64,000 bases of DNA from Demequina lutea (GTDB taxonomy: Bacteria; Actinomycetota; Actinomycetes; Actinomycetales; Demequinaceae): the NCBI RefSeq assembly GCF_013409005.1, contig NZ_JACBZO010000001.1, positions 2,108,001 through 2,172,000 of the forward strand, read 5' to 3'. The notes below the pieces were generated by a model. It was not told where the DNA came from. It did no database searches and worked only from the letters and a program-made list of their open reading frames with translations. The translations under genes were made by a program, and so were the position numbers. This document shows, one piece after another, positions 4,787 through 64,000 of this stretch (position 1 is the stretch's first letter; every line of letters starts with the position of its first letter).

Positions 4787-7288
4787 CTATTCGAGGCGCC
4801 TGCGCGCCAGAGACCGGGGTTCCTTGCCACCGAGGAGCCAACCGACGGCCCAGGCAACAACGGGGAGTCCCACCACGAGCGCGAGGATCGCACTGATGGG
4901 AGCTGGGTTAAGCACCGACAGGTCTCGTCGATACCAAGCAACGAGTGTGATGTACGCACCCGCGGTGCCTAAGAGCCCACCGAGGAGACCGAGAGAGCCC
5001 GCCGTCGCCGCCGTGATAGTGCGGCGCACGCCGCTGCTCGCTCCCGTGGCCGCAAGCGTCGACAGGTCCGGCGCGGTCTCGCTCCTGATAAGGCCCACGG
5101 TCATGGCGAGCACGGCGAGCGCGAGCGCGATGCCTCCCGCGGTGACAGCCAGACGCAAGGGAGCGAGGTCCGCCTGCGTCGGCCGCGTCTCGACGCTGAG
5201 TCCTGCCTGCAAGGCCAACACGCGCGCCTTCGCCTTTTGTGCGGCGGTCACGTTGCCGTCGAAGTCGAGGAGCCAACCGGTCGGCACGGCGGTAAGTCCC
5301 AGGTCTCCCATCGCCTTCGGCGTGATGAGAGTGGTCGGGTCGGACGAGTAGGTGGGCAGGTCCGAGCGCTGCACCACCGGCACCCAGTCCGAAGCACGAA
5401 TCGGGATCATTTCGTACGCGTCAAGGTTCGCGTGCGACGTGACCAGGTCGGTGTTCGCAGGAATGGAGGACTGCGAGATGCCGTAGTGCGCGAGGACCTC
5501 GGGGGTCAACAGGTACACGTGTACCGACTCGTTGCCATAGAAGGCGGTTCCGGTGTGGCCGCCCTCTGAGACGGCACGCGGGATGCCGAGCTCGACCGGA
5601 TCATACGTGGGCGTTCCCGCGGTTGCGCCGTCACCCACGTGGGTGCCGCCGTTTCCCTTTGTGTCGACCGCGGCATCGAGGGCCAGTGTGGAGCGCGCGC
5701 CGACCGAGCGCGCAATGTCGTCCACGGCACTCTGCGCCGCGAGCAGGGATTCGGCGCCGACCGCGGGGATTGGACCGCCCGCGCCATTGCTCCCTAGCCA
5801 CAGGACAATCTCGTTGCCGGGCAGGTTGCCGCCGCCAACGGTTGAATTGGCGGCGACCTGTGCGGCGCCCGCCACGCCCGAGATCGCCACCGCGATTCCG
5901 ACGGCGAGGCTCACCGCGGCGACGGCGCCGCCCGAGCGGGCCCGGTAGCGGTCGAGGTCGCGCACGGCGAGGCGGACGGCCACGGGTGCCCGCGCTCCCG
6001 CGGCCGCAAGCAGTGAGGTGGTCCCGGGGGCGATGAGGAGCATCCCCACCACCGTCGCGCCGATGCCGAGAGCCAGGAACACCGGCCGGTTGCTCGGCAC
6101 GAATGCCACTGTTGCCAGGCCCCCCATCGCGACGATGGCCCCCGGCAGGGCGCGAAGGTGCGGCGCCCGCGGTGGCGCGGGCCTCGTCGCCAGAGCGGAC
6201 ACGATCGGGGTCCGCGAGGCCGACCGCGCCGGCCACCACGAACCGAGCACCGACGTGACGACCGCGAGAATCATCGCTCCGGCAATCGCTAGCCACGACT
6301 GGTTGAGCGGATCGATGCGATGGTTCACGACCCGCTCGATGGCGGGCACGGCGACGAACCAAGCGCCCACCCCGACCGCGGCGCCGATCACCGCACCCGC
6401 TGCGCCGACCAACGCACCGTTCACGAGTAGCGCGAGGCGGAGATTCCTGGTCGTTGCCCCCAACGCGCCGAGTAGCCCCACGCCGCGCAAGCGCCGCTGC
6501 GCGATCACCGAGAATCCGGCCACGGCGACCAGGCCGACGAAGATGGATCCAATCACGGCGAGGACGAGGACCACGACCGCGGCCTGGACGTTCTGGTGTG
6601 CCGTCTTGAGCGACACCTGGGCGCCGTCGATGCCGAGGCCATAGAGGTCCCCACCGGATGGCGCCACTCCGAGCACGCTCACCGTCTGTGGCGACGCGAT
6701 GGTTCCGGGCGCGACGACCGCGAGGTCCTCGAGCAGGTCGAGGGGATTCTCGACGATGCCCACCACCCGCCACGAGTGGCCGTCGACGCTCCACTGACCT
6801 CCCACGGCGAGACCGAACGTGCCGGCGACGCCGTCGGTCACGGCAATCTCGTCTGCACCGCTCGGGTAGCGTCCGCCAACAAGTCGAAGCGTGGCCGACA
6901 TGAGGGGCCCGGAGGGATCCTGATCGCGAACGTCGATCGGGGTCACGCTGCCTGGCACGGGGATGCTCAGGTGGTGGATGACCTCGGCCGTGCCGAAACG
7001 ACCGGTGAGCTTTGCGACATCGGCACCTAGGCTCGGGTCGGAACCGGGGATGATCACCAGGTAGTCGGCGCTGCCGAAGCGAGCATCCGACGACGCGCTC
7101 GCGTTTGCCGCGAGACCGAGGCCGACGACGGTCGCGGCGAGCACGACGACGAGTAGGGAAAGCACGAGCCCCTGTTGACGCCACTCACGCCGGAACATGC
7201 GCCACGCCCAGCGGGCGACCGCGCGACGAGCGGGGAGCCCTCCCGTCGAGGCCGAACGGCTGAGGCGGGCCTCGGACACGTGGGTCAC
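4787..7288 (-). CDS. FtsX-like ABC transporter permease (MacB/LolCE type)
   Basis: Membrane subunit of an exporter working with the ATPase encoded directly upstream. The 833-residue protein has an N-terminal membrane span near residues 38-62, a large extracytoplasmic domain, and two FtsX-type blocks of three to four helices, one in the middle (about 225-430) and one at the C-terminus (about 700-820), with a second extracytoplasmic domain between. The GTG start at 7288 overlaps the ATPase stop codon (GTGA), so the two are translationally coupled. With the PadR gene it forms a three-gene operon PadR-ATPase-permease. Such actinobacterial sets usually export antimicrobial peptides, lipids or drugs. 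The substrate here cannot be read from sequence. Confidence 0.88.
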   Translation of the reverse strand: MTHVSEARLSRSASTGGLPARRAVARWAWRMFRREWRQQGLVLSLLVVVLAATVVGLGLAANASASSDARFGSADYLVIIPGSDPSLGADVAKLTGRFGTAEVIHHLSIPVPGSVTPIDVRDQDPSGPLMSATLRLVGGRYPSGADEIAVTDGVAGTFGLAVGGQWSVDGHSWRVVGIVENPLDLLEDLAVVAPGTIASPQTVSVLGVAPSGGDLYGLGIDGAQVSLKTAHQNVQAAVVVLVLAVIGSIFVGLVAVAGFSVIAQRRLRGVGLLGALGATTRNLRLALLVNGALVGAAGAVIGAAVGVGAWFVAVPAIERVVNHRIDPLNQSWLAIAGAMILAVVTSVLGSWWPARSASRTPIVSALATRPAPPRAPHLRALPGAIVAMGGLATVAFVPSNRPVFLALGIGATVVGMLLIAPGTTSLLAAAGARAPVAVRLAVRDLDRYRARSGGAVAAVSLAVGIAVAISGVAGAAQVAANSTVGGGNLPGNEIVLWLGSNGAGGPIPAVGAESLLAAQSAVDDIARSVGARSTLALDAAVDTKGNGGTHVGDGATAGTPTYDPVELGIPRAVSEGGHTGTAFYGNESVHVYLLTPEVLAHYGISQSSIPANTDLVTSHANLDAYEMIPIRASDWVPVVQRSDLPTYSSDPTTLITPKAMGDLGLTAVPTGWLLDFDGNVTAAQKAKARVLALQAGLSVETRPTQADLAPLRLAVTAGGIALALAVLAMTVGLIRSETAPDLSTLAATGASSGVRRTITAATAGSLGLLGGLLGTAGAYITLVAWYRRDLSVLNPAPISAILALVVGLPVVAWAVGWLLGGKEPRSLARRRLE

Positions 7289-46497: not shown

Positions 46498-47808
46498 GTG
46501 ACGGACACGATTGCGCTAAAGGCCGACGGCCTGTTCAAAATCTTCGGCAAGCATGCGGATTCCGCGGTGCGCAAGCTGCGCTCCGGTTCCGCAAAGGACG
46601 TGCTCCCCAGCGGGTCGACCGCCGCCGTAATCGACGCCTCCTTCGAGGTCAAGCGTGGCGAAATCTTCGTGGTCATGGGCCTGTCCGGCTCGGGCAAGTC
46701 CACGCTGATCCGCATGCTCAACGGCCTTCACGAGGTCACGGCAGGCACCGTCACGATCGGCGATGAGGAGGTCACCGACGCCTCGAACAAGCAACTCAGG
46801 GAGTACCGCCGCACCCGCATGTCGATGGTGTTCCAGCACTTCGCGCTGCTCCCCCACCGCACGGTGCTCGACAACGTCGCATACGGCCTAGAGATCCAAG
46901 GCATGCCCCGCGCCGAGCGCGATGCGAAGGCTCGTGAGGTCACGGCCATCGTCGGTCTCGCCGGCTGGGAAGACAAGCACCCCAACGAGTTGTCTGGTGG
47001 AATGCAGCAGCGCGTCGGCCTGGCCCGCGCGCTCGCGGCCGACACAGAGATCCTGCTCATGGACGAGGCCTTCTCCGCCCTCGACCCGCTCATCCGTCGC
47101 GAGATGCAGGAGCAACTGCTCGAGTTGCAGGCCTCCCTGGGCAAGACCATCATCTTCATCACCCACGATCTCAACGAGGCCATGTTCCTTGGCGACCGCA
47201 TCGCCGTGATGCGTGACGGCCGCATCGTGCAGATCGGCACGCCCGAGGAGATCCTCACCGATCCGGCCAACGAATACGTCGAGCAGTTCGTTCAAGACGT
47301 CGACCGCACCCGAGTCCTCACCGCCGAGTCCGTCATGCGCAAGCCGCGCGCTGTGGTCCACCCTTCGGCGGGCCCTCATGGCGCGCTCAAGACGATGCGC
47401 GACGAGCAGATCTCGGCCGTCTATGTGGTCAACCGCGACCGGACGCTTATCGGCTGGGTCACCGACCGCGACGCCCTCGACCTGGTGCGCAAGGGCGAGC
47501 CTCGCCTGGAGACCATCGTCCGCACCGACCACGGCGCGGTGTCCCAGGACACGTTCCTCTCAGAACTTTTCATCCCCGCGCTCGAGGCCGAGCTTCCGCT
47601 TGGCGTGCTGGATGCCAAAGGCCGCCTGGTGGGCGTCGTCCCGCGTGTCACCCTGCTCGCCGCCCTCGGAGGCACGCCCGACGCAGACGCTCAAGCCGGC
47701 CCGCGGCCCGACCCACTCCCCACCGAGGTGGTTGACCAGGCCCTCGAGGCTGCAGTCGAGACCGGCTCCATCGAATCCAGCTCGATCAAAAGCACGGAGG
47801 CCAACTGA
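46498..47808 (+). CDS. proV: Glycine betaine/proline ABC importer ATPase with CBS domains
   Basis: The 436-residue ATPase has Walker A GLSGSGKSTLIRMLNG, signature LSGGMQQRVGLARAL, Walker B ILLMDEAFSALDPLIR, and a C-terminal CBS pair (about residues 280-395; SAVYVVNRDRTLIGWVTDRD is one core). In OpuA-type transporters, CBS modules sense ionic strength or cyclic-di-AMP. The GTG start at 46498 has GAGGA upstream. It overlaps proW by one base (TGATG). It imports osmoprotectants such as glycine betaine during hyperosmotic stress. Confidence 0.94.
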   Translation: MTDTIALKADGLFKIFGKHADSAVRKLRSGSAKDVLPSGSTAAVIDASFEVKRGEIFVVMGLSGSGKSTLIRMLNGLHEVTAGTVTIGDEEVTDASNKQLREYRRTRMSMVFQHFALLPHRTVLDNVAYGLEIQGMPRAERDAKAREVTAIVGLAGWEDKHPNELSGGMQQRVGLARALAADTEILLMDEAFSALDPLIRREMQEQLLELQASLGKTIIFITHDLNEAMFLGDRIAVMRDGRIVQIGTPEEILTDPANEYVEQFVQDVDRTRVLTAESVMRKPRAVVHPSAGPHGALKTMRDEQISAVYVVNRDRTLIGWVTDRDALDLVRKGEPRLETIVRTDHGAVSQDTFLSELFIPALEAELPLGVLDAKGRLVGVVPRVTLLAALGGTPDADAQAGPRPDPLPTEVVDQALEAAVETGSIESSSIKSTEAN

Positions 47809-48764
47809 TGGAGTTCCGCATTCACTTTGGCGACTGGATCACCTCTGGACTCGTGTGGGTCGAGAACAACCTCGGCTGGTTCTTCGGCTTCCTCAAGGAC
47901 GTCTATTTGGGGCTGTACCACGCCCTGAACTGGCTGTTCACGACGCCGACTCCGTTGGTAGTGATCGTCGCGCTCGGCCTTCTCGCCTTCCTGGCCCGGG
48001 GCTGGAAGTTCGGCCTCGGCGCCGCCGCGGGCTTGGTGTTCATCCTGGGCGTCAACCAGTGGGAAAACGCGATGGACTCCCTGTCCCTCGTCATTGTCGC
48101 GGCACTGTTCGCGATCCTGATTTCCATCCCGCTGGGAATCTGGGCGGCGCAAAATTCCGTCGTCTCGAAGATTCTCAAGCCCATCATGGACTTCCTCCAG
48201 ACGATGCCGGCCCTCGTCTACCTGCTCCCCGCGATTGCGCTCTTCCACATCGGCGTCGCACCCGGCATATTCGCGACCGTGCTCTTCGCGCTCGCGCCCG
48301 GCGTTCGCCTCACCGAGCTCGGGATCCGCGGCGTCGACAAGGAAGTGGTTGAGGCCGGACAGGCCTTCGGCGCCTCTCCCTCACGCATCCTGCGTCAGAT
48401 TCAATTGCCTCTAGCGATGCCGTCGATCATGGCCGGCATCAACCAGATCATCATGCTGTCGCTCTCCATGGTCGTCATCGCCGGCTTCGTCGGCGCTGGT
48501 GGCCTCGGTGGCCAAGTCGTCAAGTCGCTGTCTGCGCTCGACAAGCCGCTCGGCTTCGAGTCCGGCATGGCCGTGGTCATCCTCGCGATCATCCTGGACC
48601 GCTTCACCGGCGCGTTCGGCAACAAGCGCGCGAAGTCACTGATGGGCCGCTGGTTCAGCAGGTTCCCAGGCGGCGGCGCGCGACCAGGCGACACCACTGC
48701 TGGCAAGGGTGTCGACCAGATCAAGGCCGAGAACCGTGCCGTCAAGCAGTCGGGCCTCGCCTGA
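47808..48764 (+). CDS. proW: Glycine betaine/proline ABC importer permease
   Basis: The 318-residue integral membrane subunit has an N-terminal extension with additional helices, then the importer permease core with helices from about residue 85. The EAA loop VVEAGQAFGASPSRILRQIQLPLAMP (shortened) couples to ProV. The ATG at 47808 shares its A with the proV stop. The C-terminus is a basic tail of about 35 residues. Confidence 0.93.
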   Translation: MEFRIHFGDWITSGLVWVENNLGWFFGFLKDVYLGLYHALNWLFTTPTPLVVIVALGLLAFLARGWKFGLGAAAGLVFILGVNQWENAMDSLSLVIVAALFAILISIPLGIWAAQNSVVSKILKPIMDFLQTMPALVYLLPAIALFHIGVAPGIFATVLFALAPGVRLTELGIRGVDKEVVEAGQAFGASPSRILRQIQLPLAMPSIMAGINQIIMLSLSMVVIAGFVGAGGLGGQVVKSLSALDKPLGFESGMAVVILAIILDRFTGAFGNKRAKSLMGRWFSRFPGGGARPGDTTAGKGVDQIKAENRAVKQSGLA

Positions 48765-48841: not shown

Positions 48842-48857
48842 GCAGGGAGATTCCCTG
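48842..48857 (+). promoter_or_regulatory. Small hairpin before proX
   Basis: CAGGGA-gat-TCCCTG lies 24 bases upstream of the proX start, between proW and proX. It may act as an mRNA stabiliser or processing signal that raises binding-protein levels. Confidence 0.35.
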
Positions 48858-48880
48858 TGCAAGGAAAGGAAACACAACAT

Positions 48881-49795
48881 ATGAAGATGCGCTCTACCGC
48901 GCTCCTCGCCGCCGCGGCAGCGGCAAGCCTCGTGCTTGCTGGCTGCTCGTCAACCGCGGCCGCCAACCCGACCACGTCTGCCTCTGGCAGCGCGGCCGTT
49001 CCCGCAGCGGGCGGCGACATCACGTTCGGTGTGTTCAACGGCTGGGACGAGGCCACCGCCTCCTCGCTGCTGTGGCAGAACATCCTGGACAGCAAGGGCT
49101 ACAACGTCTCGCTCAAGTACGCCGACCCCGCGCCTGTTTTCCAGGCCCTGGCCGATGGTGACTACGACCTCGTGACCGACGTGTGGCTTCCCGCGACGCA
49201 CAAGAAATACCTCGACCAGTTCGGCGACAAGATCGTCAAGGTTGGTCCTTGGTTCGACAAGGCTTCGCTGACCGTCGCGGTCAACGCCGACGCTCCGATC
49301 AACTCCCTCTCCGAGCTCGCCGCCAATGCGGACGCCTTTGGCAACCGCATCGTCGGCATCGAGCCCGGTGCCGGTCTCACGACCGCCATGGAGGACAAGG
49401 TCATCCCCGGATACGGCCTCGAAAAGATGAACTTCATCACGTCGTCGACCCCCGCCATGTTGGCGGAACTTGACAGCGCGATGAAGAACGGCAAGAACAT
49501 CGCCGTCACGTTGTGGGAGCCACACTGGGCCTACGGCGCGTACAAGCTGAAGAACCTCGCCGACCCCAAGGGCACCCTTGGCACCTCCGAGTCCATCTAC
49601 ACGTACTCGCGCACCGGCTTCGCCAAGGACTTCCCCAAGGTGAACGCCTGGATGACCAACTTCAAGATGAGCTCCGACCTGCTTTACGACCTGGAGAACA
49701 AGCTCCAGGCCGCCGGCAGCGAGAGCGACTATCAGGGCATCGTGGCCGACTGGGTCGCCGCCCACCAGCAGTGGGTTGACTCTCTCACCGCTTGA
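48881..49795 (+). CDS. proX: Glycine betaine-binding lipoprotein
   Basis: The 304-residue solute receptor has lipobox LVLAGC (lipidated Cys near residue 20), a Ser/Ala/Thr linker and the OpuAC fold in normal order (GVFNGWDEATASSLLW at the start of the domain, LWEPHWAYGAYKL in the second lobe). Trp residues in GWDEA, VWLPATH and LWEPHW are well placed for the aromatic cage that binds trimethylammonium groups. AGGAAAGGA precedes the ATG at 48881; an upstream in-frame ATG at 48857 is unlikely. The operon ends in a strong terminator. Confidence 0.93.
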   Translation: MKMRSTALLAAAAAASLVLAGCSSTAAANPTTSASGSAAVPAAGGDITFGVFNGWDEATASSLLWQNILDSKGYNVSLKYADPAPVFQALADGDYDLVTDVWLPATHKKYLDQFGDKIVKVGPWFDKASLTVAVNADAPINSLSELAANADAFGNRIVGIEPGAGLTTAMEDKVIPGYGLEKMNFITSSTPAMLAELDSAMKNGKNIAVTLWEPHWAYGAYKLKNLADPKGTLGTSESIYTYSRTGFAKDFPKVNAWMTNFKMSSDLLYDLENKLQAAGSESDYQGIVADWVAAHQQWVDSLTA

Positions 49796-55440: not shown

Positions 55441-55514
55441 GCCCTCGTAGCTCAGCTGGATAGAGCATCGGACTTCTAATCCGGCGGTCGCAGGTTCGAA
55501 TCCTGTCGGGGGCA
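55441..55514 (+). tRNA. tRNA-Arg (anticodon TCT)
   Basis: The cloverleaf is complete. Acceptor GCCCTCG pairs with CGGGGGC with one G-T pair; the D arm is GCTC...GAGC. The anticodon stem TCGGA/TCCGG encloses CTTCTAA with TCT at 55475-55477; the T arm is GCAGG-TTCGAAT-CCTGT. Discriminator A. CCA is not encoded. It reads AGA codons. Confidence 0.95.
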
Positions 55515-55603
55515 CTCTTGGTCCACTTCTGCACGTCCCTCTCTGTGCGACCGGTGGGACCAACGACGGAAGAGCATTGTCCAACGTGCGCGAGGATAGA
55601 AGC

Positions 55604-57467: not shown

Positions 57468-57543
57468 GTGGGTGTAGCTCAGCTGGTAGAGCTCCTGGTT
57501 GTGGTCCAGGCGGCCGCGGGTTCAAGTCCCGTCACTCACCCCA
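57468..57543 (+). tRNA. tRNA-His (anticodon GTG)
   Basis: Acceptor GTGGGTG (57468-57474) pairs with CACTCAC (57533-57539). Anticodon stem CCTGG/CCAGG with loop TTGTGGT; anticodon GTG at 57501-57503. T arm GCGGG-TTCAAGT-CCCGT. C73 (57540) pairs with an encoded G at -1 (57467), the tRNA-His identity pair. CCA is encoded (57541-57543). Confidence 0.95.
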
Positions 57544-57701: not shown

Positions 57702-58454
57702 ATGATCGCCGCGCTGACAGGCGCTGGGCTCTCGGCCGCCGCGGGCCTCAACGCCTTCATCCCGTTGGTGCTCGTCGGCGTGTTCGCGCGCTTCTCGACG
57801 TTCATCGACTTGCCCGCAAACCTCATGTGGCTCCAGGACTGGCCCACCATCATCATCGGCCTGATCCTGCTCGCAGCCGAGTTGGTGCTCGACAAGATTC
57901 CCGGCGTCGACCACGTCAACGACCTCATTCAGACGACCGTGCGTCCTCTCGTTGGCGGCGTGATCTTCTCCGCCGTGGCATCGGCAGCGGAGATCGACAA
58001 GGGTCAATTCTGGTCGCACAACCCGCTCATCGGCGGCATCGTTGGCGCCATCATCGCGTTCCTGGTTCATACGGGGAAATCCACCTCGCGCCCCGCGATC
58101 AATGCGGCCACGGGAGGCACGGGCGCCCCTCTCGCTTCCTTCGCCGAGGACGCTACCGCCGTAGGCCTCAGCCTCACGGCCATCTTCGCGCCCATCCTGG
58201 TCACGGTGTTCCTCGTGGCGATCGGCGGCGCGGTGTACTACATCGTCACCACCGGCAGGCGGCGGCGTCGCACGAGGGAAATCAGGCTCACCCAGGAACG
58301 GCTCGAGCGCGAGGCCGCCTCCGCGCGCGGCGAGAAGGTCGCGTGGTGGCGCTCCTGGCGTGAGCGCTATGAGCGTTACGGGGAGAGGAACTCCGACAGC
58401 CACCCGCACAGCGGGGCAACGCCGGAGGTTTCCTCGGAGACAAACGGCAGTTAG
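57702..58454 (+). CDS. DUF4126 membrane protein
   Basis: The 250-residue protein has about six hydrophobic segments from the start (MIAALTGAGLSAAAGLNAFIPL, with the glycine-rich helix typical of DUF4126), LDKIPGVDHVND between helices, and a charged Arg-rich cytoplasmic tail (about 187-250). The function of DUF4126 is not established. Its last four bases overlap the 3' end of the convergent ABC ATPase gene. It follows tRNA-His and its terminator, so it needs its own promoter within 57580-57700. Confidence 0.85.
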   Translation: MIAALTGAGLSAAAGLNAFIPLVLVGVFARFSTFIDLPANLMWLQDWPTIIIGLILLAAELVLDKIPGVDHVNDLIQTTVRPLVGGVIFSAVASAAEIDKGQFWSHNPLIGGIVGAIIAFLVHTGKSTSRPAINAATGGTGAPLASFAEDATAVGLSLTAIFAPILVTVFLVAIGGAVYYIVTTGRRRRRTREIRLTQERLEREAASARGEKVAWWRSWRERYERYGERNSDSHPHSGATPEVSSETNGS

Positions 58455-59185
58455 GCCGCGAAGTCGGCCACGAAGTCGGCGACGAACGCATTCACCGGAG
58501 CCTCGGTGACCTGTTGAGGCGTGCCGATCTGCTCAACCACCGCGCCACCCGAGAACACGGCGATGCGGTCGGCAAGCAGCGCCGCCTCGCGAATGTCGTG
58601 GGTGACCATCATGACCGTGGTTCCCAGGTCGCGCTGAATCTGGGCGAATTCCTTCTGTAGCCGCCGTCGCCCCTGCGGGTCGACCGCGCCGAATGGCTCG
58701 TCCATCAGCAGAACGGGAGGCTCGGTGGCGAGTGCCCTTGCGACGCCCACGCGCTGCCTCTCGCCTCCAGAGAGCTCGTGGGGGTACCTCGAGCCATACG
58801 TCGCCGGCGCCAGGCCCACGAGGCTCAGCAGCTCGTCGACGCGCTCGCCCGTGCGCTGCGAGTCCCAACCGAGAAGGCCCGGAACTGTGGCGACGTTTTG
58901 CGCGACCGTGCGATGCGGAAACAGCCCGACGTTTTGGATGACGTAGCCAATGCCGCGCCTGAGTTGCACCGCGTCCTGGGAGAGCACGTCCGTGCCACCG
59001 ACGCTGATCACACCCGACGTGGGCTCGACCAGTCGGTTGACCATCCGTAGCGTCGTCGACTTGCCGCACCCCGAAGGCCCTACTAACGCGAGCAATTCGC
59101 CAGGCTTCACCTCAAGATTCAAGTCAGCGACGGCGACCGTGCCGTCCGGAAAGGACTTGCGTGTGTGCTCAAAGACGATTCCCAT
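58451..59185 (-). CDS. Betaine/choline ABC importer ATPase (OpuCA/ProV-like)
   Basis: The ATPase, about 244 residues, has Walker A GPSGCGKSTTLRMVNRL, signature LSGGERQRVGVARAL and Walker B VLLMDEPFGAVDPQGR. No CBS domain is present, unlike ProV at 46498. The ATG at 59185 begins the conserved sequence (MGIVFEHTRKSF); an ATG at 59194 is equally possible. It is divergent from two permease genes and a binding protein that complete the transporter, with about 60 bases in between. Confidence 0.9.
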   Translation of the reverse strand: MGIVFEHTRKSFPDGTVAVADLNLEVKPGELLALVGPSGCGKSTTLRMVNRLVEPTSGVISVGGTDVLSQDAVQLRRGIGYVIQNVGLFPHRTVAQNVATVPGLLGWDSQRTGERVDELLSLVGLAPATYGSRYPHELSGGERQRVGVARALATEPPVLLMDEPFGAVDPQGRRRLQKEFAQIQRDLGTTVMMVTHDIREAALLADRIAVFSGGAVVEQIGTPQQVTEAPVNAFVADFVADFAA

Positions 59186-59246
59186 TCCGTGCATGCGCTT
59201 CACGCTACATGGGCCGTGTGTCATACCCGCCGCTAAAGTGGGCAAG

Positions 59247-59915
59247 ATGCATTCCGCCGCACCCAACCCCTGGCTGTCGTGGCGGTACGTCGAGTCCAAT
59301 TGGGCGGAGATCAGCCACCAGTTGAGCATTCACACGACGCTCACCCTCGAGGCCGTTGCGATCGCCTTCGCCCTCGCCTTTCCCCTCGCGGTGTTGGCCC
59401 GGAACGTGCGGTGGCTTACGCGCCCCATCCTGGGAACCGCGAGCGTGCTCTACACGATCCCCTCGCTCGCCTTGTTCGCCCTGCTCGCCCCATTCACGGG
59501 CATCGGCCGCACGACGGTGCTCGTCGGCCTCGTCACGTACGCGCTACTCGTCTTGGTGCGCAATATCCTCACCGGCCTCGAGGGGGTGGACCCCGACATC
59601 GTCGACGCCGCGCGCGGCCTCGGCTACTCGAAGAGCAAGATGCTCTTCGCGGTCGAGGTGCCGAACGCCCTTCCCTCGATTGTTGCCGGCCTGCGGATTG
59701 CCACCGTCACCACGGTTGCACTCGTGACCGTCGGCGTCGTTGTCGGCTATGGCGGCCTCGGTCAGCTGATGTTCAGGGGATTCCAGTCGAGCTATCGGGC
59801 GGAGATTGCGACGAGCTCGCTGCTGTGCGTCGCCCTCGCGCTCGTCCTTGATCTGGCAATCGTGGCCGCAGCAAGAGCGGCCATGCCGTGGGCCCGCCGG
59901 GGGAGGTCCGCATGA
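59247..59915 (+). CDS. Betaine/choline ABC importer permease 1 (OpuCB-like)
   Basis: The 222-residue inner-membrane permease has five or six helices. VLYTIPSLALFALLAPFTGIG is a hallmark of the OpuC/ProW group, and the EAA loop is in DAARGLGYSKSKMLFAVEVPNALPSI. The ATG at 59247 is chosen; the open frame further upstream is antisense to the ATPase gene. It overlaps permease 2 by ATGA. The ATPase is transcribed in the opposite direction. Confidence 0.9.
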   Translation: MHSAAPNPWLSWRYVESNWAEISHQLSIHTTLTLEAVAIAFALAFPLAVLARNVRWLTRPILGTASVLYTIPSLALFALLAPFTGIGRTTVLVGLVTYALLVLVRNILTGLEGVDPDIVDAARGLGYSKSKMLFAVEVPNALPSIVAGLRIATVTTVALVTVGVVVGYGGLGQLMFRGFQSSYRAEIATSSLLCVALALVLDLAIVAAARAAMPWARRGRSA

Positions 59916-60643
59916 GCATCTGGGCAGATGCGTGGACGTACGTCTCCACCGGTGTCAATTGGACCGGCAAACACGGGCTCACCCACCCCACGTTTGATGG
60001 TGGCTGGAAATTCGCCCACGATTCGATCGCGGCGCTGACGATCGAGCATTTGTACATGTCGGCTGCCGCCGTCATCACCGCAGCGGCGATCGCGCTGCCG
60101 CTGGGAATGGCACTGGGACATGCGCGGCGCGGTGGAGGCCTCACCGTCATGCTGTCGAACGTGTCGCGAGCCATGCCCACTCTGGCGCTGCTGACGCTGT
60201 TTGCCGCGTCGAGCATCGGATTCGGCAACCGCGCCGTGATCATCGCCGCGGCGATCTTCGCGTTCCCCCCGATCCTGACCAATGCGTATACGGGAATGGC
60301 AAACGTCGACGCCGACGTCACGGAGGCCGCTGTCGGCCAAGGTCTCACCCGACTCCAAGTCGCCTTGCGCGTGGAACTTCCGCTCGCATGGCCCCTTGTC
60401 GCCTCGGGCCTACGCACATCCGCGTCTCAGACGGTCGCCACCGTGCCCTTGGCGGCCCTCGTGGCGGGCGGGGGGCTCGGCGTCATCATCAACACGGGAT
60501 TGGCCACTCAGGCCTACGGACAAGTGCTCGCGGGGGGCGTCTTGGTGGCCGCGCTTACCCTCGGGGTCGATGCGGCGATGGGCTTGCTGCAAAGGCGGCT
60601 CACTCCCCTTCCGCTGAGGGTAGGAGCCCGCGCGGTGGCGTGA
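59912..60643 (+). CDS. Betaine/choline ABC importer permease 2 (OpuCD-like)
   Basis: The 243-residue second permease has an additional N-terminal segment (WADAWTYVSTGVNW, then WKFAHDSIAALTIEHLYMS) before the helices. SRAMPTLALLTLF and VTEAAVGQGLTRLQVALRVELPLAWP (EAA loop, shortened) are present. It is paired with permease 1 as a heterodimer, as in OpuC systems. Coupled upstream by a 4-base overlap, it is followed 135 bases later by the binding-protein gene. Confidence 0.9.
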   Translation: MSIWADAWTYVSTGVNWTGKHGLTHPTFDGGWKFAHDSIAALTIEHLYMSAAAVITAAAIALPLGMALGHARRGGGLTVMLSNVSRAMPTLALLTLFAASSIGFGNRAVIIAAAIFAFPPILTNAYTGMANVDADVTEAAVGQGLTRLQVALRVELPLAWPLVASGLRTSASQTVATVPLAALVAGGGLGVIINTGLATQAYGQVLAGGVLVAALTLGVDAAMGLLQRRLTPLPLRVGARAVA

Positions 60644-60778: not shown

Positions 60779-61783
60779 ATGCACAGCCGTCTCGGACCAC
60801 TCGCCGCTCTCGCAACATCGGCCTTCTTGCTCGCGGGTTGCGCATCCGGTGGGAGCACTCCCGCTGCGACCACCGCCGCCGCGATGACCAGCTCCCCCAC
60901 CGCGATGACCGCGCAGGCGTGCCTGCCCGTGCCGGGCGACTCGCTCGTCGTGCTCACGGACGACAAGCACTTGCAGAACTCGGACAACGTGATTCCCGCC
61001 GTGAACGCCAAGACCGCGGAGGACGCGTCCGTCATGGCGGCCCTCGACGTGGTGTCGGCCGCGCTCGACACGAGCACGCTCATCACGCTCAACAAGGCGG
61101 TCGACATCGATCGCCAGACGTCGTCCGAGGTCGCCGCGAAGTTCGTTGCCGACCAGGGCCTGACCGCCCCTAAGAAGGGAAGCGGCAAGCTCACCGTGGG
61201 CGCGGCCAACTTCTCCGAGAACATCACGATCGCGGAGATCTATGGCGCCGTGCTGAGGGACGCCGGCTACGACGTTACGGTTCGCCCGATTGGCAACCGC
61301 GAGACCTACATGCCGGCTCTCGAGTCCGGCGAGGTCAACGTCGTGCCCGAGTATGCGGCCACCGCGGCGGAGTTCCTCAACCACAAGCTCAACGGCGACA
61401 GCGCCCCGCCCGTGGCCTCCGGAGACATCGCGGTGACGACTGCCGCGCTCGCCGACCTCGGCGCAAAGGTGGGTCTCGTGTTCGGCACCGCCTCGGCGGC
61501 ACAGGATCAGAACGCCTTCGCCGTGACGACCGCCTTCGCGGCCAAGTACAACGTGAAGTCGCTGACCGATCTCGCGAAGAACTGCACGGGGATCGCCCTC
61601 GGTGGACCTCCCGAGTGCCCCCAGCGCACATTCTGCCAGCCCGGTCTTGAAAAGGTGTACGGCATTAACGTGACCGATTTCTCGGCTCTCGATGCGGGCG
61701 GCCCCCTCACCAAGACGGCCATCCGCAAGGGTGACATCGCGGTGGGCCTCGTGTTCAGCTCTGACGGCGAGCTCGCCTCTTAG
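60779..61783 (+). CDS. Substrate-binding lipoprotein with circularly permuted OpuC/ProX fold
   Basis: The 334-residue receptor of the OpuC-like importer has signal peptide and lipobox LLAGC (Cys21), then a Thr/Ala linker. Residues 55-128 (SLVVLTDDKHLQNSDNVIPA to FVADQGL) correspond to the C-terminal end of ordinary OpuC/ProX receptors. Residues 137-334 follow with what is normally the N-terminal part (KLTVGAANFSENITIAEIYG, IGNRETYMPALESGE) through the second lobe, ending at VGLVFSSDGELAS, where the standard protein would continue into LVVLTDDK. So the order is permuted. GAGGAG precedes the ATG. The reading frame and codon use are uninterrupted, arguing against assembly error. Confidence 0.88.
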   Translation: MHSRLGPLAALATSAFLLAGCASGGSTPAATTAAAMTSSPTAMTAQACLPVPGDSLVVLTDDKHLQNSDNVIPAVNAKTAEDASVMAALDVVSAALDTSTLITLNKAVDIDRQTSSEVAAKFVADQGLTAPKKGSGKLTVGAANFSENITIAEIYGAVLRDAGYDVTVRPIGNRETYMPALESGEVNVVPEYAATAAEFLNHKLNGDSAPPVASGDIAVTTAALADLGAKVGLVFGTASAAQDQNAFAVTTAFAAKYNVKSLTDLAKNCTGIALGGPPECPQRTFCQPGLEKVYGINVTDFSALDAGGPLTKTAIRKGDIAVGLVFSSDGELAS

Positions 61784-61786
61784 GGA

Positions 61787-61828
61787 CTCGCCAACGAGCA
61801 GCTCGCCAACGAGCAGCTCGCCAACGAC
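61787..61828 (+). repeat. 15-bp tandem repeat after the binding-protein stop
   Basis: CTCGCCAACGAGCAG occurs at 61787-61801 and 61802-61816, with a third partial copy at 61817-61828. It begins three bases after the stop codon. If read through, it would extend the protein by repeated LANEQ units. Confidence 0.8.
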
Positions 61829-61858
61829 GAAGGCCCGGTCCGTGAGGACCGGGCCTTC
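61829..61858 (+). terminator. Strong terminator of the OpuC-like operon
   Basis: A perfect 13-bp stem, GAAGGCCCGGTCC / GGACCGGGCCTTC, with loop GTGA, followed by TGTTGG. It is 45 bases downstream of the stop codon. Confidence 0.85.
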
Positions 61859-62267: not shown

Positions 62268-64000
62268 CTAGCGGAGCACCCCCTGGAAACCGAACGTAAA
62301 GGTCAGCTCGCCGCCGGGAACGAGGTACTCGGGGTGGGTCATGGCTCCCCACGACTGGTCTCCCCCGACGCCGCGGCGCGCGAGGGCGGGACGCAGAATG
62401 GTGCGCTGGATGGGAGGAAGGTCCGTGTGGTGCCGCGCGTTGTCGATCTCGAACGGCGTCCACGGCAGGGCGGACAGTTCCATGCCGCCGGGGGCATCCA
62501 GGCGAAGGCCAAAGCCTGCATCATCGAGCACCTCCGCCCACCGCACCGAGGTGTGGCTACCAGCTTCCTGAGGTGTCATGTAGCGGGTGAGCTGGTCGCG
62601 CACGTCGCCTTCCCAGACGTCGAGCCGGGCGCCACCGCGACGGTCAACGTAGTTCTCGCCCGGCCCGTCGCCGTACCAGCGCAGCCGTCGTAGGTCGGCG
62701 TCCACGGTGAGGGTCATCGCGAACTCCGGCAGGTCCGGCAGTCCCTCGCCCGGACGCAGAGTCATGGTGACGCCCACGTGGCCATCGCCGTCCACCACGT
62801 AGGAGACGTCGACCTCGCTGCGGGGCGTGGTGGGGAGCTCATAGCCATACGTGATCTCCACCGAATTCTGGAGGTGGGTCACACGAGGCTTCTCCCAGCC
62901 CTCGCGGAGCTTGCGGCTCTTGGACGCTAGCAGCCACTGTCCATCCCGGAACTGCATGCCCCAGCCCCGCTCGTTTGACGTGGGCGCGTGCCAGAAGCTG
63001 GGATACGGCAAGTCGCGCAGCAGTTCGCGGCCGCCGTCGGAAGTGCGCCCGTAGCGGTAGGACACCAGATGACCATAAAGCCGCGAGAACAGCAACGAGA
63101 AGTGTTTGCCGTGGACGCCAATGTTGTGGGTGCTCTCGACGACCCGGGGAGCCGGCGCCGCCGGTCGTACTGGGTTGGCGTCACCAGCAATGGCGACAAT
63201 CTCTTGCTCCCATCCGACCGTGTATCCGACGTGCGCCCACGCTGTGGCGGCGCGCAACCGGTATGCGACGTCGATCGTGTACTCCCCCGGCGCCGTCGGC
63301 GCGGCGAACGGAAGCGGATACGTGCGACTCTCCCCGGGAAGGACCTCGACCTCGAGGGTCTCTTCACGAAGAGTGACGCCCTCGCGACGCAGTGTGACCA
63401 CCACGTCGAGGTCATCTAGCCCGGTGAACAGGCGCCGGTTAGTGATGGTCACGGTGTCGGCCGTGATGGCCGTTCGGAACGCCTGATAGAGATAGCGAAC
63501 CTCTTGATAGGCAGGGGTGAGCTGGCGGTCAGAGGACACGATGCCATTGGCACTGAAGTCGTAGTCACTGGGAGCCTCGCCAAAGTCGCCGCCGTAACCC
63601 ATGAACGGCTGGCCGTACCGATCAGTAAGCGGGAGCGTCTGGTCGGCAAAGTCCCAAATGAACCCTCCCTGGAACAACGGCTCGCGCTCGGTGAGGTCCA
63701 GGTACTTGTCAACCGCGCCGAACGAGTTGCCCATCGAGTGCGCGTACTCGCAGAGGATGAATGGCTTGTCGCGGTGCTCGGCCAGGTGTGCCTCGATGTC
63801 CGCGGCGGGCGTGTACATGTGGCTGGTGATGTCCGTGGTCTCCGGGTATCGCGGATCCCAGTGCACTCCCTCGTAGTGCACCGGGCGGGTCGGGTCGGTC
63901 GCTCGGAACCAGTCGCTCACCTGAAGGAGGTCGGTGCCGCCAAAGGACTCATTGCCCAGCGACCAGATGATGACGCTCGGGTGGTTCTTGTCGCGCTCCA
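62268..64000 (-). CDS. lacZ: Beta-galactosidase (GH2), 5' part outside window
   Basis: The C-terminal 577 residues of a LacZ-type GH2 enzyme. The acid/base Glu is in IIWSLGNES at the window end, the nucleophile Glu in FILCEYAHSMGNSFGAV, and the C-terminal small-chain domain (HNIGVHGKHFSLLFSRLYG, then FWHAPTSNERGWGMQFRDG) is present to the TAG at 62268. The in-frame ATG at 63920 is internal; upstream codons (NHPSVIIWSLGNES) are part of the catalytic domain, so the gene continues beyond 64000. It hydrolyses lactose or plant galactosides. Confidence 0.92.
   Translation of the reverse strand, partial: ERDKNHPSVIIWSLGNESFGGTDLLQVSDWFRATDPTRPVHYEGVHWDPRYPETTDITSHMYTPAADIEAHLAEHRDKPFILCEYAHSMGNSFGAVDKYLDLTEREPLFQGGFIWDFADQTLPLTDRYGQPFMGYGGDFGEAPSDYDFSANGIVSSDRQLTPAYQEVRYLYQAFRTAITADTVTITNRRLFTGLDDLDVVVTLRREGVTLREETLEVEVLPGESRTYPLPFAAPTAPGEYTIDVAYRLRAATAWAHVGYTVGWEQEIVAIAGDANPVRPAAPAPRVVESTHNIGVHGKHFSLLFSRLYGHLVSYRYGRTSDGGRELLRDLPYPSFWHAPTSNERGWGMQFRDGQWLLASKSRKLREGWEKPRVTHLQNSVEITYGYELPTTPRSEVDVSYVVDGDGHVGVTMTLRPGEGLPDLPEFAMTLTVDADLRRLRWYGDGPGENYVDRRGGARLDVWEGDVRDQLTRYMTPQEAGSHTSVRWAEVLDDAGFGLRLDAPGGMELSALPWTPFEIDNARHHTDLPPIQRTILRPALARRGVGGDQSWGAMTHPEYLVPGGELTFTFGFQGVLR

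Follow-up and report, generated by a model that had tools for sequence, protein, structure and literature searches.

Can the receptor of an ABC importer be encoded with the parts of its fold in another order than in its relatives, and what holds such a protein together if the chain has been cut at the hinge between its two lobes? This question is raised by a gene in a stretch of 64,000 nucleotides of Demequina lutea, which is called the window hereafter. The first-pass annotation of the window had described the gene product as a circularly permuted glycine betaine/choline-binding lipoprotein, in which the segment that normally closes the receptor chain follows the lipid anchor, and had suggested tandem duplication and trimming as a possible origin.

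The receptor gene and its operon

The receptor gene is the last of the importer genes and is followed by a probable terminator. The features of the locus are listed here by position in the window.

58451-59185, minus strand: divergent ATPase (ABC_tran), start codon chosen by eye
59247-59915, plus strand: permease subunit 1 (BPD_transp_1), from profile matches and tblastn
59912-60643, plus strand: permease subunit 2 (BPD_transp_1), from profile matches and tblastn
60779-61783, plus strand: circularly permuted OpuAC/OsmF-type substrate-binding lipoprotein of 334 aa, type A order, from the ORF, Pfam, phmmer and the rotation scan
60779-60841, plus strand: signal peptide and lipobox LAGC, residues 1-21, lipid expected on Cys21, from the motif
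60842-60919, plus strand: linker, residues 22-47, with low pLDDT up to about residue 40 and variable spacing
60920-60940, plus strand: new N-terminal arm with Cys48, residues 48-54, with a fixed-spacing cysteine in 93/93 type A proteins
60941-61162, plus strand: residues 55-128, the block that closes the standard chain (C-terminal part of lobe I), from alignments
61163-61186, plus strand: residues 129-136, linker from the old C-terminus to the old N-terminus, rotation optimum 129-133
61187-61780, plus strand: residues 137-334, the block that opens the standard chain (N-terminal lobe I, then lobe II), from alignments
61583-61585, plus strand: Cys269 codon, proposed disulfide partner of Cys48, in 93/93 type A proteins
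61616-61636, plus strand: Cys280 to Cys286, second proposed disulfide, inside lobe II, from the both-or-neither pattern
61829-61858, plus strand: inverted repeat, probable operon terminator, with perfect 13-nt arms and a 4-nt loop

The signal peptide, the lipobox and the cysteine at the cleavage site (LAGC21) are those of a bacterial lipoprotein, a call that is made from the motif. This lipobox-like sequence precedes the old C-terminal block, and the lipid anchor has thus moved, as the first-pass annotation had claimed. The gene set of OsmF systems consists of two permeases and one ATPase. The receptor stands beside two permeases and a divergent ATPase (58451-60643), and the intact importer genes noticed earlier are those of an OsmF/YehZ-type importer. 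The best NCBIfam match of the ATPase is a ProV-type model, with a score below the cut-off of that model, and the OsmF equivalog NF049931 gives 64.9 bits in two stretches against an NCBI cut-off of 400. Three imperfect direct repeats with a 15-nt spacing, 68-75% identical over 28 nt, are located at 61770-61827; they span the stop codon of the receptor gene and the bases beyond it, immediately 5' of the terminator hairpin.

A circularly permuted OpuAC domain

The window receptor is a circular permutation of the order that is standard in the OpuAC family. The Pfam profile PF04069 (OpuAC) matches it with an E-value of 8e-42 and a score of 144.1 bits against a cut-off of 21.2. The match is divided into two stretches, and the better one places residues 137-332 on profile positions 2-183. 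In the genome of the window, G000, where the window occupies C1:2108001-2172000, a profile scan located profile positions 173-256 directly upstream of positions 2-186, with both parts present. In its score and in having all parts of the domain, the protein belongs to PF04069; only the linear order of the profile is not kept. The comparison with AfProX (1sw1) by phmmer gave the same picture, residues 134-305 being matched with 4-171 (i-Evalue 3.9e-7) and residues 55-129 with 200-274 (1.3e-5). When the receptor was rotated in silico, AfProX (3mam) was matched in a single stretch (2-276 with 3-269, E 1.6e-18) and E. coli OsmF/YehZ (4wep) from 5-281 with 7-286.

Moreover, every rotation of residues 48-334 was scored against a hidden Markov model built from 56 standard-order relatives. 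The encoded order of the window receptor scored 219.8 bits and the best rotation, with residues 129-133 as the new first residue, 300.9 bits, a gain of 81 bits. Since the maximum of 200 shuffles was 11.1 bits, the effect of the permutation is far above chance. Thus, the permuted order that had been read from the letters of the window holds, because the swapped blocks merge into one match upon rotation, and the block boundaries proposed at that time (55-128 and 137-334) proved accurate in the alignments and at the rotation optimum.

The AlphaFold model of the receptor, calculated with a 30-row alignment, has a pLDDT of 90.1 and a pTM of 0.81 and predicts the intact fold that had been expected. 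Residues 55-128, for which an unrelated domain would have spoken against a permutation, are predicted with confidence, and the best structural matches of the model, among those listed, are OpuAC/ProX folds. Residues 136-334 superpose on residues 6-198 of AfProX (3mam) with a Z-score of 14.3 and an rmsd of 2.0 over 190 aligned residues. In the sequential comparison by Foldseek alone no permutation was visible, the TM-scores being about 0.24-0.50 among the matches listed. For annotation, it follows that linear profiles return permuted receptors as two partial matches.

Distribution of the type A order and other permuted types

The order of the window receptor, with its cut before LVVLxDDK, is designated type A. 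A scan of genome contigs with the window protein gave 265 matching stretches; relatives are encoded by 199 of these. All of the best 80 of the 199 relatives match in one piece and therefore have the permuted order; the matches end at query residues 332-334, at most three residues from the stop of the relative, and some of them start only at residues 9-54 because signal and linker differ. Because the 80 were selected as the best matches of a query that is itself permuted, this result shows the spread of the order and not its frequency. The 80 loci belong to Demequina, Cellulomonas, Actinotalea, Oerskovia, Xylanimonas, Myceligenerans, Micromonospora, Actinoplanes and others, so that homologues with the same order, which the first-pass annotation had proposed to look for, exist in several genera. 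In an even draw of genomes from the order, PF04069 was present in 46/49 genomes and the permuted pair of matches in 7/49, in one of which (G030) the pair lies at a contig end. A draw from the class contained the permuted pair in at least 17 of 394 genomes with seven family codes. These surveys covered the Actinomycetota, and counts taken from the listed matches are lower bounds. The plasmid scan matched 340 records, none of which had one place covering 80% of the query. In genome G004, the two halves of the permuted protein are the sole PF04069 matches and, thus, the permuted receptor is not a spare copy in this organism.

When the type A profile was applied to 396 genomes of the phylum, proteins with still other orders of the parts were matched as well. 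These were sorted with a doubled profile of 538 positions, which reads any rotation in one piece. Type B proteins start in lobe II after the SDLA helix and occur in at least 11/396 genomes, to which one more protein, truncated at the end of its contig, and a single genome from the class draw can be added. Type C proteins start about 30 residues after the type B start (at least 2/396 genomes), and type D proteins have nearly the cut of type C and belong to another subfamily (at least 2/396 genomes). The Pfam profile, which was built without regard to permutation, agreed with this sorting in 15 chosen genomes, being split at positions of about 173-187 in type A, 113-143 in type B and 152-159 in types C and D. 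When five proteins (one of type A, two of B, one of C and one of D) were scanned over all rotations, the score rose by 79 to 170 bits. The fusion of the old C-terminus with the old N-terminus is common to all four types. The model of a type B protein (pLDDT 87.4) matches 2b4m end to end, with a Z-score of 18.4 and an rmsd of 4.3 over 245 aligned residues (43-318 with 9-272); the best non-OpuAC protein among the matches listed has a Z-score of 10.0. A lipobox-like motif precedes the domain in 93/93 type A, 11/12 type B, 2/2 type C, 2/2 type D and 48/50 standard-order proteins; since the motif is about as common in the standard order, the permuted forms are not distinguished by their anchoring.

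One type B protein (L193, genome G717, 5086-6033) comes from the window's own class, where it lies inside a standard-order clade. It lacks the C280/C286 pair described below, and the surrounding clade consists mostly of cysteine-less receptors. In the type B protein L145, residues 45-46 are Ala-Ser and stand before the first strand at the new N-terminus; the pair is invariant in 11/11 aligned type B proteins and common to type B proteins from separate branches.

Origins of the permuted orders

From the 199 loci with a match, proteins that cover at least 215 profile positions and are non-identical after rotation were kept (n = 159), namely 93 of type A, 50 of standard order, 12 of type B and two each of types C and D. 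The tree was constructed from 97 rotated rows, of which 77 were taken from the 159 proteins by identity thresholds and 20 were added standard-order proteins. In the careful tree, type A forms one group (94/91, present in 94% of 200 bootstrap trees, just below the threshold for a star). This group is located inside starred clades with standard-order proteins of Actinomycetes, one of 28 rows (96/89) that includes the standard-order proteins L171, L175 and L181, and one of 41 rows (100/99). A quick tree needed two changes for type A, with L192 apart, and the careful tree one. By the careful tree, the type A order arose once, inside a standard-order clade of the Actinomycetes, which is the outcome of the tree mapping that had been recommended for the same-order homologues.

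In the careful tree, types C and D require one change each and type B four, which makes seven changes with type A. The AU test rejected one clade for all permuted rows (p 1.9e-72), for types A and B (p 2.4e-96), for all type B proteins (p 6.6e-5), for type B without L193 (p 1.9e-4) and for types C and D (p 0.0145), and type B without L193 and L150 was borderline (p 0.042); the two subsets of type B were chosen after the quick tree. There seem to be at least five separate origins of a permuted order, seven in the best tree, the counts on the tree being neutral as to gain or loss. The ancestral order is read as standard because archaeal ProX and the near sisters have this order.

It could be argued that one ancient permutation underlies all permuted members and was later re-cut or reverted. 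The join of the old termini, which all four types share, would agree with such a history, though any permutation of the domain gives this join, and tree counts do not separate gain from loss. However, the AU test rejects one clade for all permuted rows, for A with B, for all B and for C with D, and archaeal ProX and the near sisters have the standard order, which makes a single ancient event very improbable. A different kind of doubt concerns the sequences themselves, because several of the type B and type D genomes are fragmented drafts and L155 (type B) and L163 reach a contig end. For type A, an artefact of assembly or annotation is already refuted by the spread over 80 agreeing loci. Moreover, type A is present in closed or nearly closed genomes (G000 with two contigs and G248 with one) and type C in G416 (one contig), so that the chance of an artefact is negligible.

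The genes around the receptors bear on where the type A permutation happened. The ATPase and both permeases were found upstream by tblastn in 78/89 loci that had been labelled A automatically, a set that includes L157, which is really type D, and omits L196, which was labelled C and is type A. Several of the misses are short contigs or have a different layout (L192). The standard-order loci L201 and L202 of type A's clade have the same genes upstream, and the ATPase is also divergent. Given this shared neighbourhood, the permutation most likely occurred in place.

The tandem duplication that had been put forward as its origin did not find support. A second OpuAC-like ORF was present in none of the 199 fetched OpuAC-like loci, the search covering ORFs of at least 200 aa with E <=1e-15 in loci before L203 and at most about 5-6 kb on each side. 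Of the 538 positions in the doubled profile, a match in the fetched loci covered 320 at most, and the direct repeats inside the receptor gene are short and imperfect and bear no trace of a duplication. The two longest overhangs, those of L160 and L161, were considered as remnants of a second copy and rejected, since by eye they represent an acidic linker and a start whose position is uncertain. Pairs of neighbouring standard-order OpuAC matches exist elsewhere, for instance at G279:C3:54966-56676 (about 120 bases apart), G038:C1:3136050-3137801 (about 250 bases apart) and G042:C1:4071498-4074124 (about 1.1 kb apart). It is possible that such pairs are raw material for permutation by duplication.

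Cysteine pairs and a proposed history

Type A receptors have two cysteines that set them apart from their relatives. C48 and C269 are invariant in 30 aligned type A rows, and all of the 93 distinct type A proteins have Cys269 and a cysteine at one fixed distance before the first strand (C48), while the spacing from the lipobox cysteine to C48 varies from 15 to 47. C269 is lacking in the three standard-order rows that are nearest by path (L171, L181 and L175), and it is present in 1/56 standard-order rows and 0/16 rows of types B, C and D. The one standard-order protein with a cysteine at position 269 (L205) is without the C48 partner, and none of the 56 standard-order rows has a cysteine in the aligned stretch before the LVVL strand, i.e. 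at the place of C48. A second pair, C280 and C286, is complete in 154 of the 159 proteins and absent from five, and complete in 80 of the 97 tree rows and absent from 17; one of the two cysteines alone was never observed. Among the 20 added standard-order rows, just eight have this pair. The both-or-neither pattern, together with L021, which is without C280/C286 and keeps C48 and C269, makes C280-C286 and C48-C269 the likely pairs. C48 and C269 never vary inside type A and hence show no co-variation, so that their pairing is assigned by elimination. From these sequence patterns, a disulfide C280-C286 within lobe II, common to many standard-order relatives, is likely, and a disulfide C48-C269 probably re-links the lobes.

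The positions of lobes and crossovers in the window receptor were assigned from the general architecture of the fold. We consider it fairly probable that an OsmF-type receptor was rotated once at the hinge and that the C48-C269 disulfide replaces the lost crossover. The window protein would be the lipid-anchored substrate receptor of an OsmF (YehZYXW)-type importer with two permeases and one ATPase. In one ancestor within the Actinomycetes, the receptor gene was rotated: a short linker came to join the old C- and N-termini, and the second crossover, which runs from lobe II to lobe I, became the site of the new opening. Lobe I would thereby have become contiguous in sequence, with lobe II behind it, and the tether would enter on the hinge side and not at the first strand of lobe I. 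Cys48 and Cys269 were gained on the same branch, the former on the new N-terminal arm and the latter on lobe II, and a disulfide between them would most likely replace the lost crossover by tying the new arm and lobe I to lobe II. Lobes tied in this way could still close on the ligand and dock to the permeases. This history builds on the order, the single origin in the careful tree, the operon context and the cysteine pattern; the pairing and the role of the disulfide and the transport function would be added to them.

Alternatively, the permutation may have been neutral, with the new order folding equally well and the cysteines contributing to general stability, so that there was neither compensation nor an advantage in anchoring. 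Indeed, several kinds of permutants persist beside standard-order relatives with a similar neighbourhood, and binding proteins frequently tolerate artificial permutation. Types B, C and D are maintained without C48 and C269 and, thus, a permuted receptor does not generally need such a pair. However, C48 and C269 arose on the very branch that carries the permutation, and 93/93 proteins have them, and neutrality is unlikely, though it deserves to be kept in mind. The rotation with a compensating disulfide remains the preferred explanation.

Comparison with known receptors

The window contains a second importer, of OpuAC type and standard order, with a permease at about 47808-48764 and a receptor at about 48857-49795; its closest match in the PDB is the binding domain of the betaine importer of L. 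lactis. The comparison of this standard-order OpuAC with B. subtilis OpuAC (2b4l) yielded swapped stretches (154-305 with 3-150 and 49-136 with 160-247), which reveals that B. subtilis OpuAC is a natural permutant with the cut of type B. Like the window receptor, this glycine betaine receptor is circularly permuted relative to the standard order. However, its cut lies in lobe II, ahead of the strand after the SDLA helix, whereas the window receptor is cut at the hinge and is nearer to ProX/OsmF in sequence. The OpuAC-type cut before the LGGPP/GIEPG strand of lobe II is thus that of type B and not that of type A. Pseudo-symmetry was considered as the reason why the type A model matches B. subtilis OpuAC (45-267 with 11-272, Z 16.9), an interpretation that was dropped because OpuAC is itself permuted.

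AfProX (1sw1, 3mam) and OsmF/YehZ (4wep) are homologous to the window receptor over the domain after rotation and both have the standard order; AfProX has no C48/C269 pair as aligned. The ProX of Mycobacterium tuberculosis, which we assume to have the standard order as well, is another relative. It is an actinobacterial, YehZ-like and cage-less receptor, as is the window receptor (PMC5894108).

Permutation relations among betaine-binding proteins have been reported (PMC2395249, from 2008). A text search of a paper on L. lactis OpuA for mentions of permutation gave no hit (PMC2861598). The receptor TpMglB-2 (Tp0684) of Treponema is, like the window receptor, a lipid-anchored and naturally permuted ABC receptor; it is glucose-binding, still binds and closes, and its authors suggest that tethering may have favoured the topology (PMC4990184). 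It differs in its fold, which is of the type I or cluster B sugar-binding kind, and in that its permutation adds a fourth crossover (PMC4990184), whereas that of the window receptor removes one, for which a disulfide probably substitutes. As regards the TpMglB-2-like type Ic, the best structural matches listed for the window receptor are OpuAC/ProX folds. No paper on permuted ProX/OsmF-type receptors of Actinomycetota was found among the titles and abstract openings given by searches of an open-access library.

As regards novelty, the permutation stands, but the type A order is common to many relatives among the Actinomycetes, and permuted receptors and a natural permutation of this fold were known before. 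Within our searches, the cut at the hinge together with the cysteine pair that arose with it, the cut of types C and D, and the repeated permutation in one family and phylum are new. As a rule, a natural circular permutation is known from one event that separates distant relatives. The present family offers several events, near standard-order relatives, different cuts, one reused cut (also in B. subtilis OpuAC) and a cysteine pair that arose with one of the cuts, and it makes it testable how a two-lobe receptor tolerates cutting at the hinge. A wider reading, possible rather than probable, would be that at least five permutations in one family and phylum fell on few recurrent cuts, that the hinge cut was repaired by a disulfide, and that permutation recurrently moves the tether. 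Since these receptors are anchored at the N-terminus, the position of this end would be selectable, and permutation could be a recurrent way to move the tether. The family makes it testable why tethered receptors permute, a question that was raised for TpMglB-2 (PMC4990184).

Ligand of the receptor

The aromatic cage of AfProX consists of Tyr63, Tyr111, Tyr190 and Tyr214. These residues align with Tyr192, Asn245, Phe326 and Asp69 of the window receptor, of which Asn245 and Asp69 are invariant in 30 aligned rows. Thus, two of the four positions are non-aromatic and there is no four-aromatic cage of the AfProX type. Moreover, Lys13 of AfProX corresponds to Ala143. MtProX is without the aromatic cage residues and binds polyphenols, and YehZ binds betaine in the millimolar range only (PMC5894108). 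The binding of glycine betaine or choline that the first-pass annotation had assigned is therefore not sustained, and a classical betaine bound in a cage is probably not the ligand. The pocket does not support the name 'glycine betaine-binding', and betaine or choline is not a safe guess.

The protein could still bind glycine betaine or choline through a re-shaped pocket. The Pfam family and the best PDB match are betaine receptors, and Tyr192, Thr195, Asp243 and Arg283, which are invariant in the 30 aligned rows, are kept at the positions of AfProX Tyr63, Thr66, Asp109 and Arg149. Against this stand the invariant replacements of Tyr111 and Tyr214, the alanine in place of Lys13, and the polyphenol binding and the weak betaine binding of the relatives (PMC5894108), so that a betaine or choline receptor is rather improbable.

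The window also contains genes for tRNA-Arg (tct; 55441-55515) and tRNA-His (gtg; 57468-57543). Beyond the terminator, a long open frame on the minus strand (62268-63998) runs off the window; its product is presumably beta-galactosidase-like.
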